Shown: positions 4,156 through 17,680 of the stretch, one piece after another | Numbering within the stretch: position 1 is the first letter of the stretch | Layout: each line of letters begins with the position of its first letter | Assembly: GCF_001528665.1 (NCBI RefSeq) | Contig: NZ_BBYJ01000010.1 | Coordinates: forward strand, 248,001 to 312,000 | Origin: Microtetraspora malaysiensis | GTDB taxonomy: Bacteria > Actinomycetota > Actinomycetes > Streptosporangiales > Streptosporangiaceae | Length of the DNA: 64,000 nt | Direction: 5' to 3' | Notes under the pieces: generated by a model | The model's input: the letters and a program-made list of their open reading frames with translations, nothing else | Told to the model about the DNA's origin: nothing | The model's database searches: none | Made by a program: the position numbers and the translations under genes

Positions 4156-5553
4156 CTAGGCGGGGCGGAAGGAGTCCCTGGCCTGGGGGGCGGCGTGCTT
4201 GATCATGAGGTGCCGGGTGACCGAGTACTCCTGGACCGCCTCCTGGCTCATGTCCTTGCCGAAGCCGCTGCCCTTGACGCCGCCGTGCGGCGCCTCGGAG
4301 GCGATCGGCAGGTGGTCGTTGATCCAGGTGACGCCGACGTCGAGGCGGTGCGACACGCGCAGCGCCCGGGACACGTCCGTCGACCAGACCGACGAGGCCA
4401 GGCCGTACTGCGTGTCGTTGGCGAGGCGGACCGCCTCGTCCTCGGAGTCGAACGGCACCGCGACCAGCACGGGACCGAAGATCTCGCCCTGAACGATCTC
4501 GCTGGACTGGTCGGCGTCCGCGATGAGGGTGGGCGCGTAGTAGAAGCCCGGCCCGTCCAGCGGCGCGCCGCCGCAGACCACGCGGCCGGAGGCGCGCGTG
4601 ATGAAGCCGTGCACCCGGTCGCGGTGGGCCTGCGAGATCAGCGGGCCGATGTCCGAGCCCTCCTCCCACGGGTCGCCGGGCCGCACCCGGGAGAGCGCGT
4701 CGCGCAGCGCCTCGACGCCTTCGGCGTACCGGGAGCGCTCGATGTAGACGCGGGTGGCGGCGGTGCAGTCCTGCCCGGTGTTGTACGTGGCGCCCATGGC
4801 GACGCCGAACGCCATGTCCTCAAGGGAGGCGTCGGCGAACACCAGCGCGGGCGCCTTGCCGCCGAGCTCCAGGTGGACCCGCTTGAGACCGTCCACCGCG
4901 CCCTGCATGACGGCCCGGCCGGTCGCCGTGGAGCCGGTGACGCTGACCATGTCCACGCCGGGGTCGGTGACGAGGGCCTGCCCGACTTCGGCGTCGCCGG
5001 TCACCACCTGCAGCAGCCCCTCGGGGGCGCCCGCCTTGGCGAACAGCTCGGCCAGCCGGAGCGTGCTGCGCGGCGTCTGCGGCGCGGGCTTGATGACGAC
5101 CGCGTTGCCCGCGGCGAGGGCCGGGCCGATCTTCCAGATCCCCATGATGAAGGGGAAGTTCCACGGCGCGATCGAGCCGACGACGCCGACCGGCCGCCTG
5201 ATCAGCACGGACGTGTAGCCGGCGCTGAGCACACCCGCGCCGGTCCCGTCGAGCGAGCGTCCGGCTCCCGCGAAGAACCGCAGGTTGTCCACGCCGAACG
5301 GCAGCTCGCCATCACGGAACACTGGGGCCGGCTTTCCGGTCTCCTCGACCTCGAGCCGGGTCAGCTCCTCGGCGTCCTGCTCCACCAGGTCGGCGAAGCG
5401 CAGCAGCACCCGCGCCCGCTCGGCCGGGGTGGTCTCCCGCCACTCCTCGAAGGCAGCACGCGCGGCTCGTACGGCCGCCGCCACGCCCTCGGGCGACGTG
5501 TCCGGCACGTCCTCGACGGGCCGGCCGTTCGCGGGATTGATCAGGGTAGCCAT
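4156..5553 (-). CDS. NAD-dependent aldehyde dehydrogenase, aminoaldehyde type
   Basis: 465 residues, a full-length ALDH. General-base Glu229 lies in LELGGK, the nucleophile Cys263 in NTGQDCTAATR, and the NAD-binding turn is SVTGSTATGRAV. Start MATLINPANG is preferred because GAGGA lies six bases upstream; a farther ATG at 5568 lacks a site. It follows the FAD oxidoreductase gene by 96 bp, so the likely substrate is an aminoaldehyde such as 4-aminobutanal made by that oxidase, giving GABA. Substrate choice is inferred from context; betaine-aldehyde dehydrogenases look very similar. Confidence 0.85.
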   Translation of the reverse strand: MATLINPANGRPVEDVPDTSPEGVAAAVRAARAAFEEWRETTPAERARVLLRFADLVEQDAEELTRLEVEETGKPAPVFRDGELPFGVDNLRFFAGAGRSLDGTGAGVLSAGYTSVLIRRPVGVVGSIAPWNFPFIMGIWKIGPALAAGNAVVIKPAPQTPRSTLRLAELFAKAGAPEGLLQVVTGDAEVGQALVTDPGVDMVSVTGSTATGRAVMQGAVDGLKRVHLELGGKAPALVFADASLEDMAFGVAMGATYNTGQDCTAATRVYIERSRYAEGVEALRDALSRVRPGDPWEEGSDIGPLISQAHRDRVHGFITRASGRVVCGGAPLDGPGFYYAPTLIADADQSSEIVQGEIFGPVLVAVPFDSEDEAVRLANDTQYGLASSVWSTDVSRALRVSHRLDVGVTWINDHLPIASEAPHGGVKGSGFGKDMSQEAVQEYSVTRHLMIKHAAPQARDSFRPA

Positions 5554-5594
5554 GCCATCCTCTTTCATCGGTCACGATGGACCTGCGGACATTC

Positions 5595-5649: not shown

Positions 5650-7023
5650 TCAACTGTCGAAACCGACGCCGAAGCGGTCGAGCAGGCGCAGCCACGGCCC
5701 GCGACGACCCGCGTTCTCGTCCGCCCGGGCCAGCGCCCGCCGGGTGACCTCGACCACCGGCCAGCGCAGCGGCTCCGGCGGGAACGGCACCGGCAGGCGG
5801 CGCACCATCCGCAGCCCGGTCCGCCTCGTCGAACGGCGGGCCAGCAGGTCGAGACCGACCAGCGCGCCGAACCGGGAAGCGCCGACACCGAGCCCCGTGT
5901 AGCCCAGCGCGTACGCCACCCTGCCGCCCATGGCGGTGCCGAAGAACGGGGTGAACCGGCTGGTCGAGTCGATCGCTCCGCCCCACTTGTGGGTGAACCG
6001 CACTCCGTCGAGCTGGGGGAACGTCTCGAAGAAGTGCCGCGCGAGCACTTCGTGCGTGGCGTCGCGCTGTTCGCTCCCCGAGCCGCCGAAGTTGTAGATG
6101 GCGTCGTAGCCGCCCCACAGGATCCGGCCGTCGGACGTCAGCCGGTAGTAGTGGAACTGGTTGCCCGCGTCGGTGAGGCCCTGCCCCTCCGCCCAGCGCA
6201 GCGACGCGCGCTGCGACTCCGACAGCGGCTCGGTGGCCAGCACGTAGTCCCAGACCGGCAGCACGAAGTTGCTCAACCTGCGCAGCGGCGGCGGATACGC
6301 GTTGGTGGCCAGCAGCACCTGCGCCGCGTCGATCACGCCGGAGCCGGTGGTGACATGGATCTTGGCTCCGGAACGTTCCAGACCCGTGACCGCCGTCTTC
6401 TCGTAAACCCGGACACCGAGCCGCTCGGCCACTCTGACCAGGCCCCAGGCCAGCTTGGCCGGGTCCAGGATGCCGCCGGTGCCGCGCAGCCGCAGCCCGC
6501 CGAGGTACGTCGGCGAGTCCACGTCGGCGCGCATCTCGTCACGGTTGAGGAAGACCGCGTCCTCACCGTGCTCGCGGTGCAGCCGCTCGGCTTCCTTGAG
6601 CTCGGCGACGTGGTGCGCGGCGACCGCGACCGTCGTCTTGCCCAACAGGCGCAGGTCGGCGTCGATGTCGTGGGCCTCGACGAACGCGGCGATGGCCGCG
6701 AGGTTCTCCCGGCCGAGGGCGAGCAGCGTACGCATCTCGTCGGGCCACAGCTTCAGCCCCTGGCTGAGCCCGTGGGTGAGCGAGTCGGAGATGAACCCGC
6801 CGTTGCGCCCGGTCCCGCCGTACGCGATCGACTTCGCCTCGACCAGGACCACGTCACAGGCCGGGTTCTCCTCCTTCGCCAGCACGGCGGCCCAGAGGCC
6901 GGTGAAACCACCGCCGACGATGAGCAGGTCGGCGGTGGTCCGTCCGTCAAGCGGGTGATACGCCGGCGCCCCGGGCCTGTCGGTCCAGAAGACCCGGGGA
7001 GCGGCGTCCTTCAGTGCTTTCAC
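5650..7023 (-). CDS. FAD-dependent amine oxidoreductase (DAO/PuuB-like)
   Basis: 457 residues. An N-terminal dinucleotide fold has VGGGFTG at residues 36-42, and a GGTGRNGGF motif follows, as in gamma-glutamylputrescine oxidase and related DAO-fold enzymes. The C-terminal part has GGAIDSTSRFTPFFG and GYTGLGVGASRFGA, the FAD-contacting end. Such enzymes oxidise an amine to an aldehyde with release of ammonia and H2O2. Its ATG overlaps the stop of the upstream glycosyltransferase (ATGA), so the two are translationally coupled. The exact amine substrate is unknown. Confidence 0.85.
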   Translation of the reverse strand: MKALKDAAPRVFWTDRPGAPAYHPLDGRTTADLLIVGGGFTGLWAAVLAKEENPACDVVLVEAKSIAYGGTGRNGGFISDSLTHGLSQGLKLWPDEMRTLLALGRENLAAIAAFVEAHDIDADLRLLGKTTVAVAAHHVAELKEAERLHREHGEDAVFLNRDEMRADVDSPTYLGGLRLRGTGGILDPAKLAWGLVRVAERLGVRVYEKTAVTGLERSGAKIHVTTGSGVIDAAQVLLATNAYPPPLRRLSNFVLPVWDYVLATEPLSESQRASLRWAEGQGLTDAGNQFHYYRLTSDGRILWGGYDAIYNFGGSGSEQRDATHEVLARHFFETFPQLDGVRFTHKWGGAIDSTSRFTPFFGTAMGGRVAYALGYTGLGVGASRFGALVGLDLLARRSTRRTGLRMVRRLPVPFPPEPLRWPVVEVTRRALARADENAGRRGPWLRLLDRFGVGFDS

Positions 7024-8297
7024 TTGGCGGCGATCTTCTCAATCACGTCGGCGGCGACGCGCAGGCCGTCCCGGCGCCGGATCTCCGCGCCGTGGGCGGC
7101 CAGCCGCTCACGCAGCTCGGTGTCGCCCAGCAGGCGGTCGAGGGCACCGGCCAGCTGCTCGTCGGTGAACTTGTAGGTGTCGAGGCGGACGCCGTAGCCC
7201 TTCTCGTGCACCCGCTGGGCGTTGTCGTACTGGTCCCAGAACAGCGGCAGCAGGATCATCGGCTTGCCGAAGTGCAGCGCCTCGGTGGTGGTGTTGTTGC
7301 CACCGTGGGTGATGACGAGGTCCACCTGCGGGATGATCGCCGCCTGCGGCACGAACTCGGCGCCCCACATGTTCGGGGCCAGCTCGATCTCCTCGTGCAG
7401 CGGGCCCTTGGAGACGATGAACCGGTACGGCGTCTTGGCCAGCACCGAGATCACGCGACGCATCAGCTCGACGTCGGCGGAGCCCAGCGAGCCGAGCGAG
7501 AAGTAGACCCAGGGGCCGTCCCCCGGGATCTCGGGGAGGGTGAACTCGTCATCCGTCTCACGCACCGACGAGTCGAGCCGGGTCCACGTCGGGCCGAGGG
7601 GACGCTCGTCGGTATAGTCCACGATCTCCGGGAACACGTACAGGTTCGCGTCTCCCTCCTGGATGAACTCCAGGTCGGGCAGCGGCGGAGCGCCCTGTTC
7701 GACGACCCACTCGTTGAACGCGGTGTAGATCTCGCGGTGGGTCCGGTCGTACTCGGCGCGGAAGGCGTCCCACTCGCTCCTGTCGTCGGCGGGCAGGCCG
7801 GAGTAGGCCGGAGCGATGTCGGCGCCCTTCACCTCAAGCGGGTTGCAGGAGACGATGCGCACGAACGGCTTGCCGGCCGTGAGCAGCGCGGGGAAGGAGA
7901 TGACGTTGTCCTCGACGATCACGTCCGGCTGGACGCGCTCGATGATGGCCTTGAGCTGCGGCTCGCAGTACTTCACGCCGTCGATCAGTGCGTCCCAGAT
8001 CGGCTTGGTGACCGTCTCCTGCTGCGCGAAGGTGCTCTTCCGGTACTCCGGCGCGGTGTCGCGGATGAAGTCCTTCCAGAACTGGCCCGCGTCCTGCTCC
8101 TCCTCGGCCGGCGGCGCGAGGTCGACCAGGTCCTCCTCGAAGCCGAGGGCCTCCAGCTTGCCCTTCCACGACGCCTCCGCCGCGAAAACCACGCGGTGAC
8201 CGCGCTTGCGCAGGACGTCTCCGATGCCGATGCAGTTGTTCGTCGGCCCGTACGCGCTCTCGGGCATGAAAAGGATAGTCAGCTGCTTGTCTGTCAT
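7020..8297 (-). CDS. GT1 (MGT/UGT-like) glycosyltransferase
   Basis: 425 residues, GT-B fold. The C-terminal nucleotide-sugar signature is at about residues 323-358: PQVDLVITHGGNNTTTEAL, then FGKPMILLPLFWDQYDN. The N-terminal acceptor half starts LTILFMPESAYGPTNN. Relatives include macrolide glycosyltransferases and UDP-glucuronosyltransferases. A GGGAG ribosome site precedes the ATG. It is the first gene of the leftward operon with the FAD oxidase and aldehyde dehydrogenase, which is an unexpected partner set. It might glycosylate an amine, or detoxify a compound; neither is shown. Confidence 0.88.
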   Translation of the reverse strand: MTDKQLTILFMPESAYGPTNNCIGIGDVLRKRGHRVVFAAEASWKGKLEALGFEEDLVDLAPPAEEEQDAGQFWKDFIRDTAPEYRKSTFAQQETVTKPIWDALIDGVKYCEPQLKAIIERVQPDVIVEDNVISFPALLTAGKPFVRIVSCNPLEVKGADIAPAYSGLPADDRSEWDAFRAEYDRTHREIYTAFNEWVVEQGAPPLPDLEFIQEGDANLYVFPEIVDYTDERPLGPTWTRLDSSVRETDDEFTLPEIPGDGPWVYFSLGSLGSADVELMRRVISVLAKTPYRFIVSKGPLHEEIELAPNMWGAEFVPQAAIIPQVDLVITHGGNNTTTEALHFGKPMILLPLFWDQYDNAQRVHEKGYGVRLDTYKFTDEQLAGALDRLLGDTELRERLAAHGAEIRRRDGLRVAADVIEKIAAK

Positions 8298-8332: not shown

Positions 8333-8414
8333 ATAGGTATCTAGCGCGCCGTCAATAGCTGGGACATTATGGGTGGGCCAGTTGTTGTCGTACGTTCAAA
8401 TCGGATGGGATGGA

Positions 8415-9023
8415 ATGGCCCAGCGCAAGAGCAGAGCGGACCGGCGGATGGATCTCATCGATGCCGCCCGCCGGGCGATGATCCAACACGGCGCGGAGGG
8501 TGTCCACCTCAACCAGATAGCCGAGGAGGCCGGGCTCACCTCCGGCGCCGTGCTGTACCACTATCCCGACCTGAGGGACCTGCTGATCGAGGCCCACCAC
8601 GCCGGGATGGAACGCTTCTACGAGCAGCGGATCAAGAAGATCCGAGGCATCGCCGACCCCGCTCAGAAGCTCATCACCACGATCAGGTCCGGCCTGCCCG
8701 AGGGGCCCGAGGACGCCGGCGTGCGCCTGCTCTGCGAGCTGGGCGGCGCCGCCGGACGCAACCGGGTGTACGGCACGCTGCTGACGACCCTGTTCGACCG
8801 GCAGGTGTCGATGTACCAGACGATCCTCGAAACCGGGGCCGCCCAGGGCATCTTCACGCTCGCCCAGTCGTCCGAGACGATCAGCCGCACGCTCGTCGCC
8901 CTCGAGGACGCCTACGGCTACCGCATCATCGCCCGGCATCACTCGATCGGGCCGGACGAAGCCGTGGAGCTCATCCTCGACTACGCCCGCCTCGCGACAG
9001 GACACGAACTCAGGCCGGAATGA
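8415..9023 (+). CDS. TetR-family repressor of the amine/amino-sugar locus
   Basis: 202 residues. The helix-turn-helix is [20 protein letters not shown] near the N-terminus, followed by an all-helical ligand domain. The start [11 protein letters not shown] gives the usual family length; an upstream in-frame ATG at 8373 would add 14 odd residues. It is divergent from the glycosyltransferase operon with a palindrome between them, and tail-to-tail with potA (14-bp overlap). It probably represses the flanking operons; the inducer is unknown. Confidence 0.85.
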
Positions 9024-11085
9024 GCACGGCGTCGGCGGCGTCCCAGCCGATCGCGACCTCGGTGCCGGGCTTGACCCGCGCCGACCCCTGGGTCGCCGCC
9101 AGCACGTGCCCCTCGTGCCCCTCCACGCGCAGCACGATGTGCGACGTGCCGCCGTAGAAGCTCACGTCCACGACCGTGCCGCGCAGCGCGCCCTCGGTCC
9201 CGGGCTCGGCGTCCGCCTCGTCCTCGTTGCCGGACTCGGCCACGGCTCCCTGCTCCTGGGCGGGGACGGCCTCGGCCACAGTCTCGACCACGGTCTCGGG
9301 GGCGTCGGCCGTCTCCGGCGCGGGCTCCTGAGCGGTCTCGGTCTCGACGGCGGCCCCGGTCTCAGGCGCTGTCTCGGCCACGGTCTCGGGCGCGGTCTCG
9401 TCCCGCTCCTCGGCCTTGGCCTTGGCGTCGTTGTCGGCGAGGACCTCGGTCACGACCTCCGCGACCACCTTGGCCACGACTCCGGCGACGGCCTTGGCGA
9501 CCACCTCGGCCATCGCCTCGGCGGTGACCTCGCCGGTCATGGCGCTCTTCACGACGGCCCGGAGGTCCTCCCCGTCACCGGCCTCGGCCTCGGCGGGGGC
9601 CTCCCCCTCCGCGGAGTCGGCGTCCTCGGCCTCCGGCTTCGGCTCGGCTTCGGACACCGCGTCGCCCTGAGATTCAACCTCGGACACCGCGTCGCCCTGA
9701 GATTCGCCCTCGGACACCGCGTCGCCCTGAGGCTCGGCTTCGTCCGCGACGGCGGGCTCGCTGTCGGCCTCGGCGTCGGCTTCGCCCTTGGGCTCGTCGA
9801 CCTGAGCCTCGGCGGCCGGCTCCGCGGGCTTGGGAGCCTTGGGCTCGGCGCCCTCGTCGGTCCTGACCGCGCCCTCCTTCACCTCCGCCTCGGCGGCAGA
9901 CTCGGCGGTCTCCTCCGACTTCGCCTCGTCCTTGGTCTCGGACTCATCCTTCGACTCATCCTTGGCCTCGGACTCATCCTTGGACTCGGACTCATCCTTG
10001 GACTCGGACTCATCCTTGGGCTCGGCGTCGCTCTCAGCCTCAACCTCAGCCTCAACCTCAGCCTCGGCATCGGCCTTCGCCTCGACGGCTTCGGCAACTT
10101 CGGCGGCGGCTTCCTCCGTCTTGGGCTCGGCGCCCTCGCCGGTCGTGACCGCGTCGTCCTTCACCTCGGCCGCGTCCGTCACCTCGGCGGCGTCCTTCGC
10201 CTCAACGGCGGCGTCGGCGGCGTCCTCTTCCTTGGGCGCGATCTGGGTGAGCCGGATGTTCTCCGGGCGTACGGCGAGGAGCGCGGCGTCGCCGTCCGCG
10301 CCCTTCGGCGCGGGCAGCAGGCCGAGGCCGTCCACGTGGAGGCCGCCCTCGGTGACCTTGCCGGAGAAGATGTTGTTGGCGCCGATGAAGCCGGCCACGA
10401 ACGGCGTGCGCGGCTGGTCGTACAGCGCGATGGGCGCGTCCACCTGCTCGACCTTGCCGCCCTGCATGACCGCGATGCGGTCCGCGAGTGACATGGCCTC
10501 CTCCTGGTCGTGGGTGACGACCACGAAGGTGATGCCGACCTCGTGCTGCAGCCGCTTGAGTTCGAGCTGCATCTCGGCGCGCACCTTCTTGTCCAGTGCG
10601 GACAGCGGTTCGTCGAGCAGCAGCAGGCGCGGACGCTTGACGATCGCGCGGGCGAGGGCGACGCGCTGGCGCTGGCCGCCGGAGAGCTGGTGCGGCTTGC
10701 GGCGGGCGTGCGCGGAGAGGCCGACGGTCTCCAGGACCTCGGCGACGCGCTCCCCGATCTCCTTCTTCGGCAGCTTCTCCCGCTCCAGGCCGTAGGCGAT
10801 GTTCCGCTCCACCGTCATGTGCGGGAACAGCGCGTACGACTGGAACATGAGGTTGATCGGGCGGCGGTGCGCGGGGATCTGGAGCAGGTCCTCGCCGTCC
10901 AGGCGGACCGCGCCGTCGTCCGGCTGCTCGAACCCGGCGAGGATGCGGAGCAGCGTGGTCTTCCCACAGCCGGAGGGGCCGAGCAGCGCGAAGAACTCGC
11001 CCTGCTGGATCTCCAGGCTGACCGAGTCGAGCGCGGTCACCTCGCCGAAGCGCCGGCTCACGCCATCAATGGAGATAAGTGTCAT
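9010..11085 (-). CDS. potA: PotA-type ABC ATPase with a ~350-residue acidic insertion
   Basis: 691 residues, about twice the usual PotA length. Residues 1-280 are a normal polyamine-importer ATPase: Walker [10 protein letters not shown] (36-44), LSGGQ (134-138), Walker B LLLLDEP (154-160), His in THD (191-193), then the first TOBE strand region ([13 protein letters not shown]). Residues about 283-632 are low-complexity Glu/Ala/Asp/Lys/Val sequence with internal repeats. The last 59 residues resume a TOBE-like fold ([20 protein letters not shown]). The frame is unbroken. The ATG overlaps the potC stop by 4 bp. The ATPase should energise the two permeases encoded upstream. Confidence 0.9.
9651..9740. 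repeat. Three 30-bp tandem repeats inside the potA insertion
   Basis: Three exact-length units begin at 9651, 9681 and 9711, each starting CGGACACCGCGTCGCCCTGA and differing only near the end. They encode the repeat (E)SQGDAVSE(V/G) in PotA. In-frame 30-bp units suggest growth of the insertion by tandem duplication. Confidence 0.9.
9971..10024. repeat. 18-bp tandem repeats inside the potA insertion
   Basis: Units GACTCATCCTTGGACTCG begin at 9971, 9989 and 10007, with degenerate copies starting near 9929. They encode a KDESES-type repeat on the minus strand. Confidence 0.88.
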
Positions 11086-11870
11086 GAGAGTGCCTCGGTG
11101 AGCTTGGTCATGCGCTGGGCCGCGATCACGACGGTGAAGCTCACCGCGAGCAGCAGGGTGGCCAACGCGTTGATCTCGGGAGTGACGCCGAACCGCACCA
11201 TGGAGTAGATGACGATCGGCAGGGTCGGTTGGGTGGGCGCGGCGGTGAAGAACGCGATCACGAACTCGTCGATGGAGAGCGTGAACGCCAGCAGGGCGCC
11301 CGCCAGGATGCCCGGCGCCAGGGTCGGCAGCGTGATCCGCATGAACGTCGTCACCGGGGTCGCGCCGAGGTCGCGGGACGCCTCCTCCATCGAGGTGTCG
11401 GCGTGGTTGAGCCTGGCCCGTACGACGGCCGTCACGAAGGCCATGCCGAACACGGTGTGCGCGATCAGCACCGAGTGCAGTCCGAGCGTCATCTTGACCG
11501 CCGCGTAGAAGATGAGGAGGCCGATCGCGAGGACCAGGTCGGGCAGGAGCGCGGGCATCGTCGAGAGCGCGTCGAGCATCCGCGACTTGTTGTACCGCGC
11601 CAGGCCGACCGCGAGCAGCGTGCCCAGCACCGTCGAGAGGACCGTCGAGCCGAACGCCACGATCAGGGTGTTGATCAGGCCTTCGCGGATCTTCTCGTTC
11701 TCGAGGAGCTGGCCGTACCAGCGCAGCGAGAACCCGCCCCACGCGTACGGCGACTTGTTCCGGTTGAACGACATGAGTACGACGACGGCGATCGGTACGT
11801 ACAGGAAGACGTACGTCAGCCAGAAGGGGAGGCGCAGCCAGCCGTTCCCCTGCTTCCGGTTCTTACGCAT
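11082..11870 (-). CDS. potC: Polyamine-type ABC permease PotC
   Basis: 262 residues with about six membrane segments. The cytoplasmic coupling loop carries the permease motif [20 protein letters not shown]. The pattern and length match PotC, one of the two channel subunits of spermidine/putrescine importers. Its start overlaps the end of potB by 8 bp, and its stop overlaps the potA start by 4 bp, so potB-potC-potA are one tightly coupled operon. No substrate-binding protein gene is in the operon. Confidence 0.88.
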
Positions 11871-12717
11871 CGCGGCCCACCCTCCGGCTGGCCCAGGCCT
11901 GGGCGAAGAGCAGGAGCACCAGGACGCCGATCACGGACAGGGCCAGCACCGAGCCGAACGGCCAGTCGCGGGCCTTGAGGAACTGGTCGCGGATCAGGTT
12001 CCCCACCATGATCCGGCGACCGCCGCCGAGCAGCTCGGGGATCACGAAGTTGCCCAGGCTCGGGACGAAGACGAAGACGCAGCCGGTCAGCACGCCGGGC
12101 AGCGAGAGAGGCAGGGTGACCGACCAGAAGGTCCTGATGGGGCGGGCGCCGAGGTTCGCCGACGCCTCGCGGAGCTGCGGGTCCAGCCGCTCGATGGCCG
12201 AGTACAGGGGCAGGATCATCAGCGGCAGGTACGCGTAGAGCAGGCCGGCGACGATGGCGCCATCCGAATAGAGGAGCTCGATCTTGCCGAGACCCAGTGC
12301 GTCGAGTCCCGAGTTGACCAGGCCTTCCGAGTTCAGCAGCACGATCCAGGCGTACGTGCGGATCAGGAAGTTCGTCCAGAACGGCAGCACGACGGCGACC
12401 AGCGCGATGACCTTCCACTTGGCCGGAAGCCGGGCGATCATGTAGGCGGTCGGGTACGCGAGCAGCAGGGCGAGAAGCGTGGTGATCGTGGCCAGCTTCA
12501 CCGATCCGATGACCACGTCGAGGTAGAGCGGGTCGATCAGCCGGGTGAAGTTCTCCCCCGTCGCCTCATAGACGACCCCGCCGAACCTGCCGCGGCGGAA
12601 CACCGTGTAGCTGAGCACAAGGGCGAGTGGGACCGCCAGGAAGACGATCAGGAAGCCGAAGCCTGGCCCCATGGTGGCGAGTCGACCGACCACCCGTGCT
12701 CGTACGGTGGACTTCAT
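11863..12717 (-). CDS. potB: Polyamine-type ABC permease PotB
   Basis: 284 residues with about six hydrophobic segments and the coupling motif LREASANLGARPIRTFWSVT. It matches PotB/PotH, the partner of PotC. It is the first gene of the leftward importer operon; the 157-bp gap upstream is shared with the divergent sugar kinase gene and contains the TTGAATC palindrome, so importer and kinase may respond to the same regulator. Confidence 0.86.
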   Translation of the reverse strand: MKSTVRARVVGRLATMGPGFGFLIVFLAVPLALVLSYTVFRRGRFGGVVYEATGENFTRLIDPLYLDVVIGSVKLATITTLLALLLAYPTAYMIARLPAKWKVIALVAVVLPFWTNFLIRTYAWIVLLNSEGLVNSGLDALGLGKIELLYSDGAIVAGLLYAYLPLMILPLYSAIERLDPQLREASANLGARPIRTFWSVTLPLSLPGVLTGCVFVFVPSLGNFVIPELLGGGRRIMVGNLIRDQFLKARDWPFGSVLALSVIGVLVLLLFAQAWASRRVGRDA

Positions 12718-17491: not shown

Positions 17492-17516
17492 GCGGCGCGC
17501 CGACCGCCGCACGCGG

Positions 17517-17680
17517 CGCGACCCCGGCCATCGTGGGCGGTGGGAACCCGGCCATCGTGTGCGGCGCGACCCCGGCCGTCGCGGGCGGCGGGCACCCGGC
17601 CATCGTGGGCGGCGCGACCCCTGCCGTCGCGGGCGGCGGGCACCCGGCCGTCGCGGGCAGCGCGAGCCCGGCCGTCGTAC
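17517..17680. repeat. 24-bp tandem repeat array (about 6.8 units)
   Basis: Units start at 17517, 17541, 17565, 17589, 17613, 17637 and 17661 (last partial). They alternate between two versions, CGCGACCCCGGCC... and YGGGMACCCGGCC..., so the higher-order period is 48 bp. The array fills the gap between the acetyltransferase stop and the end of the opposing 82-residue gene. It has no spacers, so it is not CRISPR. Confidence 0.92.

Follow-up and report, generated by a model that had tools for sequence, protein, structure and literature searches.

A PotA-like ABC transporter ATPase of Microtetraspora malaysiensis carries a long acidic loop inside its regulatory TOBE domain. The loop is real, restricted to a clade, recurrent in three groups of genera and specific to PotA. 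It lies in a stretch of 64,000 nucleotides of the genome, here called the window. We tentatively read it as an enlarged electrostatic, substrate-responsive brake on a probable polyamine importer, a picture in which transport, binding, braking and docking are all steps that we infer. We found no description of such an insert in the openly licensed PubMed Central literature searched.

The potA-like gene spans 9010-11085 on the minus strand and encodes 691 residues, as called from the open reading frame list, Pfam and TIGR01187. Its start ATG at 11085 overlaps the 3′ end of the upstream PotC-like permease gene, and its stop codon ends at 9010. The ABC_tran match covers residues 19-161, and the columns that we take to be Walker A, LSGGQ and DEP are invariant in a 36-row alignment. 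The protein passes the TIGR01187 potA model with 365.2 bits (cut-off 355.6) and fails the spermidine/putrescine PotA equivalog NF006987 with 366.4 bits (cut-off 482), a score that the split TOBE may depress. Its top equivalog match, PhnT2, also stays below the cut-off (373.5 versus 457.7 bits). Neither equivalog model thus assigns an exact substrate.

The TOBE_2 profile (PF08402) matches in one stretch with 48.6 bits (cut-off 21), profile positions 16-75 aligning to residues 631-688. The RPE motif that opens TOBE_2 stands before residue 280 and the rest of the domain after residue 633. As the match is confined to positions 16-75, the insert between them splits TOBE_2, just as the initial annotation had claimed for an insert of about 350 residues. 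The 59 normal residues that it counted at the C-terminus are in fact 58. A site of spermidine inhibition is said to have been placed in the C-terminal domain by an older study of PotA's ATPase activity and functional domains.

With loop boundaries defined as in every orthologue, the expanded loop comprises 354 residues, 280-633 (9187-10248, minus strand). Counted from residue 283, the insert has 351 residues (283-633; 10239-9187), including 85 Ala, 82 Glu, 36 Val, 32 Asp and 22 Lys, the five amino acids in which it had been called rich. Its net charge is -89, from 114 Asp and Glu and 25 Lys and Arg, and the remaining 340 residues of PotA are near neutral, with 42 and 38, respectively. Both in-frame tandem repeats reported earlier are found on the minus strand, an 18-bp repeat of KDESES units at 9925-10025 (5.9 copies, 83% matches) and a 30-bp repeat at 9650-9731 (2.7 copies, 96% matches). 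Elsewhere in the window, a strong 48-bp tandem repeat lies at 17513-17678 (3.4 copies, 90% matches).

The frame is intact and its GC content at the third codon position is 0.80-1.0 in every 50-codon block, in the core, the insert and the C-terminus alike. This periodicity marks the minus-strand frame as coding, in line with the initial decision to keep the insert as coding sequence. A plus-strand open reading frame at 9106-10491 is most simply a by-product of the minus-strand coding. An antisense gene there was considered and rejected, as the third-position GC favours the minus frame and the potA of L126 has no listed antisense frame that long.

Structurally, AlphaFold2 with the 36-row alignment predicts the PotA core at pLDDT 82-97 by blocks and residues 311-368, 370-505 and 564-630 of the insert at less than 50. 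Within the insert, confidence is higher for a helix at its start (286-303) and for a long one at 522-561. By its pLDDT and the lack of any Pfam match, the insert is not a folded substrate-binding accessory domain of the MetNI or ModABC type. Its first description as acidic and disordered holds for the charge and, by prediction, for most of the length, and gives way at residues 505-560, which are conserved and predicted to be helical.

No other copy of the insert was found in the window's genome at E ≤ 0.001 among the 150 scored of 644 first-look candidates. In a 344-kb sample of that genome containing the window, no stretch listed in any of the frames is more net-acidic than the insert (net -91), and the runner-up reaches -48. 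This ranking comes from the unfiltered listing, the filtered one being without potA. The listing contains spurious frames, and its coding-like entries alone were interpreted.

The window's potA sits in a transporter gene run on the minus strand. Two permease genes with PF00528 lie upstream, PotC-like at 11082-11870 and PotB-like at 11863-12717, and their best NCBIfam matches, PotC with 239.6 bits and PotB with 248 bits, fall below the cut-offs of 326 and 348. The run also holds an FAD-dependent oxidoreductase of the DAO family (5650-7023, PF01266) and an aldehyde dehydrogenase (4156-5568, PF00171, 525.7 bits), and another aldehyde dehydrogenase lies near potA at locus L137 (PF00171, 540.7 bits). 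A TetR-family regulator gene on the plus strand (8373-9023, PF00440) is convergent with potA and overlaps its end by 14 bp.

The window's operon has no binding-protein gene. In one genome of genus g58, a PotD/PotF-like binding protein heads the potA cluster (L137), and most of its matches in PDB carry the name of a polyamine-, spermidine- or putrescine-binding protein (best 1.1e-36). The window's genome encodes a 68% relative of this protein on another contig (L221; G000 C4:81593-82732). Polyamine import by the window's transporter is likely, as judged from the PotB/PotC-like permeases, the two enzymes of the run and the g58 binding protein. The equivalog cut-offs missed by both permeases and by PotA count against it, as does the operon's lack of a binding-protein gene.

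The next same-strand gene after potA resembles a macrolide-type glycosyltransferase (7020-8297, minus strand; PF00201 and PF06722, TIGR01426 below cut-off). Such a gene follows potA in four of the five relatives examined (L017, L018, L126 and L137) for no apparent reason, and at L019 none was seen in the interval from potA to the oxidoreductase. L017 to L021 are loci read from a list of at least 80, and L019, L020 and L021, being outside the family set, are omitted from the tree and the length tally.

Among 341 genomes of the family, 118 orthologues were taken at E ≤ 1e-115, the window's genus being represented by the window's genome alone. The loop length was read in 73 of them and is at least 30 residues in 16 and 4-24 residues in the other 57. 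In the 45 unread orthologues, 44 from g39 and one from g52, the open frame does not exceed 382 residues (377 in g39), which is too short to contain a loop of more than about 50 residues but would allow one of 30-45. An order search of 345 genomes, four beyond the family's 341, added no orthologue, and at E ≤ 1e-105 the 396 genomes sampled across the phylum yielded a single additional PotA, whose loop is short. A PotA relative of another family (L226, G608) has a short loop and an acidic low-complexity C-terminal tail.

In the nearest genus, g31, all four orthologues found carry the insert, with loops of 302, 306, 309 and 343 residues and net charges of -48 to -76. The case foreseen at the outset, in which a comparison of PotA lengths finds the closest relatives without the insert and so exposes an artefact, does not hold. 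In g58, with all 15 orthologues read, the loop is long in eight (43, 71, 129, 149, 153, 191, 204 and one of at least 132 residues) and 5-24 residues in seven. In g39, it is long in three of the ten read (31, 85 and 92 residues), and three genomes with nearly identical PotA cores have loops of 13, 31 and 92 residues. The acidic loops at the same site in these two other genera had been missed earlier, together with the conserved helix-forming element and the rival idea of growth by repeats.

Each of the 15 long loops read to the end has a negative net charge, from -9 to -89, and one of six loops of 13-24 residues checked for charge is basic. This 24-residue loop at L146 (G300), with a net charge of +5, is the sole clearly positive one read, and a close relative of L146 has a 43-residue Asp-rich loop. 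At L139 (G307), the contig ends inside an acidic loop, as if repeats broke the assembly; the locus is scored as long and left out of the charge tally. The otherwise acidic inserts of G083 and G081 (L127 and L129) contain a Lys/Arg-rich patch of the KRKRKTKSKAKAEP type, followed by EVREIAVVTEP.

On an IQ-TREE tree of 75 rows with the loop excluded, the long state needs at least six changes, and strongly supported branches force six. Such counts cannot distinguish repeated gain from frequent loss of an ancestral long loop. Our reading is that the loop was probably gained independently in three lineages, and the differing repeat units help this reading. The rows of Sphaerisporangium fuscum and Nonomuraea deserti fall within g52 and g39, respectively, and both are Streptosporangiaceae, the family that the initial annotation had named for the relatives.

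The long loops may instead have grown nearly neutrally, an explanation that we regard as possible though rather doubtful. An exposed TOBE loop would tolerate in-frame repeat slippage, and its acidic, Ala-rich units would be tolerated cytoplasmic disorder with no specific function. In its favour, tandem repeats whose every period is divisible by 3 make up 46-96% of the length in 13 of the 15 long loops and are absent from the other two. The length changes between the near-identical genes are, moreover, very recent. The insert flanks of the conserved element also have a high dN/dS (means of about 0.6-0.8, some pairs about 1), which counts against selection on their sequence. In the same 344 kb, an RNase E/G-family protein and a sigma-70 factor have long acidic low-complexity coding stretches as well.

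Restriction to one ATPase speaks against such neutral growth. In 12 long-loop genomes, the window's and 11 of the 15 others, there are 83 TOBE_2 matches, and exactly one per genome is truncated, at profile positions 12-15, always in the orthologue of the window's PotA. None of the other 71 is interrupted at the loop site, all beginning at profile positions 1-4, whereas growth in paralogues too might be expected if the TOBE loop were simply permissive. The loop is also kept in all five g1 and g31 orthologues.

The retained charge is a further point against it. The scarcity of Arg and the presence of Lys follow partly from which codons are one substitution away from those of Glu and Ala, and neutral substitution was therefore simulated from the window's insert flanks (-0.285 per residue) under eight mutation settings with 200 runs each. 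At 40% identity, the simulated flanks average -0.03 to -0.09 per residue with 5-8.5% Arg, and at 64% identity, the level appropriate to the closest relative, they average -0.15 to -0.18 per residue. The real flanks of four relatives, 34-69% identical to the window's, have -0.293 (closest), -0.174, -0.293 and -0.244 per residue with 0.4-2.5% Arg, a contrast that would be softened by duplications, which help to keep composition, as the simulation has substitutions alone. On this model, the acidity seems to be kept by selection, beyond neutral drift.

Near-neutral growth also sits poorly with residues 505-560 (9406-9573, minus strand), which are far better conserved than their flanks. Across the five g1 and g31 species, 39 of 56 alignment columns are invariant in this element and its identity is 83%, versus an average of 42-43% with about 30% gaps in the flanks. 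The element has a mean dN of 0.095, between that of the core (0.041) and those of its two flanks (0.51 and 0.47). The element's dN exceeds its dS in one of ten species pairs, the window versus L126 (0.12 versus 0.09).

AlphaFold2 predicts two helices in the element. One at 506-516 is of low confidence, spanning blocks of pLDDT 49 and 66, and the other at 522-561 spans blocks of 74 to 86 (49, 66, 74, 83, 86 and 83 in 10-residue blocks over 501-560). The long helix is a series of VVA(E/K) tetrads, under which lies a diverged 12-bp repeat at 9434-9532 on the minus strand (period 12, 65% matches). It is hydrophobic, the best 19-residue window scoring 1.81-2.09 on the Kyte-Doolittle scale in three species, and its helix moment peaks at 90 degrees among the angles tried.

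The element has no relatives in Pfam or among PDB sequences at E ≤ 1. In the 341 family genomes, its five strong matches (E ≤ 1.6e-29) all fall in the window's PotA and its orthologues, and ten weaker ones of 3.7e-4 to 7.9e-3 were taken as chance. One g58 PotA loop modelled with AlphaFold2 has no helix and nearly all of it at pLDDT under 50. Hence, the acidity is common to the lineages and the element is not.

The element raises another alternative, which we consider unlikely, that the loop is a tether or docking arm. The element would bind a partner, such as the second PotA, the membrane or an operon enzyme, and the acidity would keep the chain soluble and extended. A conserved, hydrophobic helix between long disordered linkers, found strongly in the window's PotA and its orthologues alone, suits such an arm, as do the co-encoded FAD oxidoreductase and glycosyltransferase. 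However, the acidic loops of the other two lineages lack such an element, as judged from their sequences and, for one loop, from a model, and the element's lack of a known relative in Pfam or PDB sequences tells against it too.

Generic sensing of ionic strength or osmotic change, or an entropic bristle, unrelated to polyamines in either case, is very improbable. Osmosensory transporters such as OpuA, ProP and BetP do use extra cytoplasmic segments (PMC10710835), but in each of the 12 genomes the loop is confined to a single TOBE_2 ATPase, which argues against a generic role. An assembly, frameshift or annotation artefact, for which the contig ending inside the L139 loop is the sole point, has a negligible chance and was rejected, as five separate assemblies of five species share the insert with diverged sequence and a conserved element, and the codon periodicity runs through it.

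The tentatively preferred reading, the enlarged brake, starts from the charge of the regulatory domain. With the loop, its net charge is -69 to -92 in four long-loop rows, and without it -4 to 0, similar to the -8 to +2 of 17 short-loop rows. A 2024 structural study of the E. coli importer (PMC11414716) bears on how cells stop polyamine import when sated. There, spermidine lowers the ATPase activity of PotABC, and the negatively charged regulatory domain of PotA is suggested to bind spermidine and lock the transporter, for which its authors call for further investigation. This proposal and the near-neutral family domain that turns strongly acidic with the loop are why we read the loop as an enlarged brake. 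The initial annotation's idea of an acidic polyamine sensor or brake thus has a published precedent in ordinary E. coli PotA, and the confinement of the loop to this ATPase agrees with it.

Mechanistically, a surface loop of about eight residues in the regulatory TOBE domain has grown largely via in-frame tandem duplication, which would convert a near-neutral domain into a polyanionic one. A PotA dimer would carry two such acidic chains, each leaving the regulatory domain directly behind the conserved RPE motif. As cytosolic polyamines, or cations generally, rise, they would neutralise and bind these chains, and the bound chains would bias the regulatory domain towards a resting, inhibited state. 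In the window's lineage, the element may in addition serve as a latch, docking in one of two states, and its target could be the partner chain, the ATPase or the membrane. Being absent from g58, the element cannot be required for a mechanism common to all lineages.

Several observations weigh on the brake reading, among them the basic loop at L146, the high dN/dS of the flanks and the missed equivalog cut-offs. The loop length is erratic, at 13, 31 and 92 residues in the near-identical g39 genes and 5-24 residues in seven of the 15 g58 loops, so a brake would be dispensable. In S. coelicolor, importer genes of similar predicted role are weakly inducible by polyamines, as stated in an excerpt of the source (PMC5403932), which counts against a brake.

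A broader version is that three lineages of one actinobacterial family separately made one and the same ATPase loop into a disordered polyanion, a polyamine gauge that reads the charge of its polycationic substrate instead of using a folded site, and that one of them added a helical latch. We think this somewhat unlikely in full. If true, it would mean that an ABC importer can sense its substrate through disordered charge, and in several lineages of soil actinobacteria a loop of up to 354 residues may let the importer sense its substrate and brake on it. These bacteria offer a natural series of orthologues that differ most in the length and charge of one loop (4 to 354 residues), including the near-identical genes with 13, 31 and 92 residues, so the brake proposal is directly testable.

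Among known systems, E. coli PotA (PDB 8Y5F and related) is the best Foldseek match, alike in the core and the regulatory domain. It has an acidic loop, VEEINDDNHAEG, after the same RPE motif (Glu297). That loop is about a dozen residues in a domain of net charge -17 (residues 241-378), whereas the window's is 354 residues, holds nearly all of its domain's net charge and adds a helix-forming element.

The S. coelicolor cluster SCO5667-5671, a predicted polyamine ABC importer, adjoins a predicted PuuB-like oxidoreductase (SCO5671) and a PuuC/PatD-like dehydrogenase (SCO5666), and resembles the window's cluster in the predicted gene roles (PMC5403932). The excerpted part of that source mentions no insert for SCO5667-5671.

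Accessory C-terminal ATPase domains are described (PMC10710835) in the trans-inhibited importers MetNI and ModABC, by which the cytosolic substrate inhibits transport, and extra charged ATPase features in OpuA, which tune its activity to osmotic change. The window's PotA is likened to both. However, MetNI and ModABC have folded binding domains with a defined site, and OpuA has a positively charged helix-turn-helix and further features of its nucleotide-binding domain, while the window's insert is a largely disordered polyanion inside the TOBE domain of a PotA-type ATPase.
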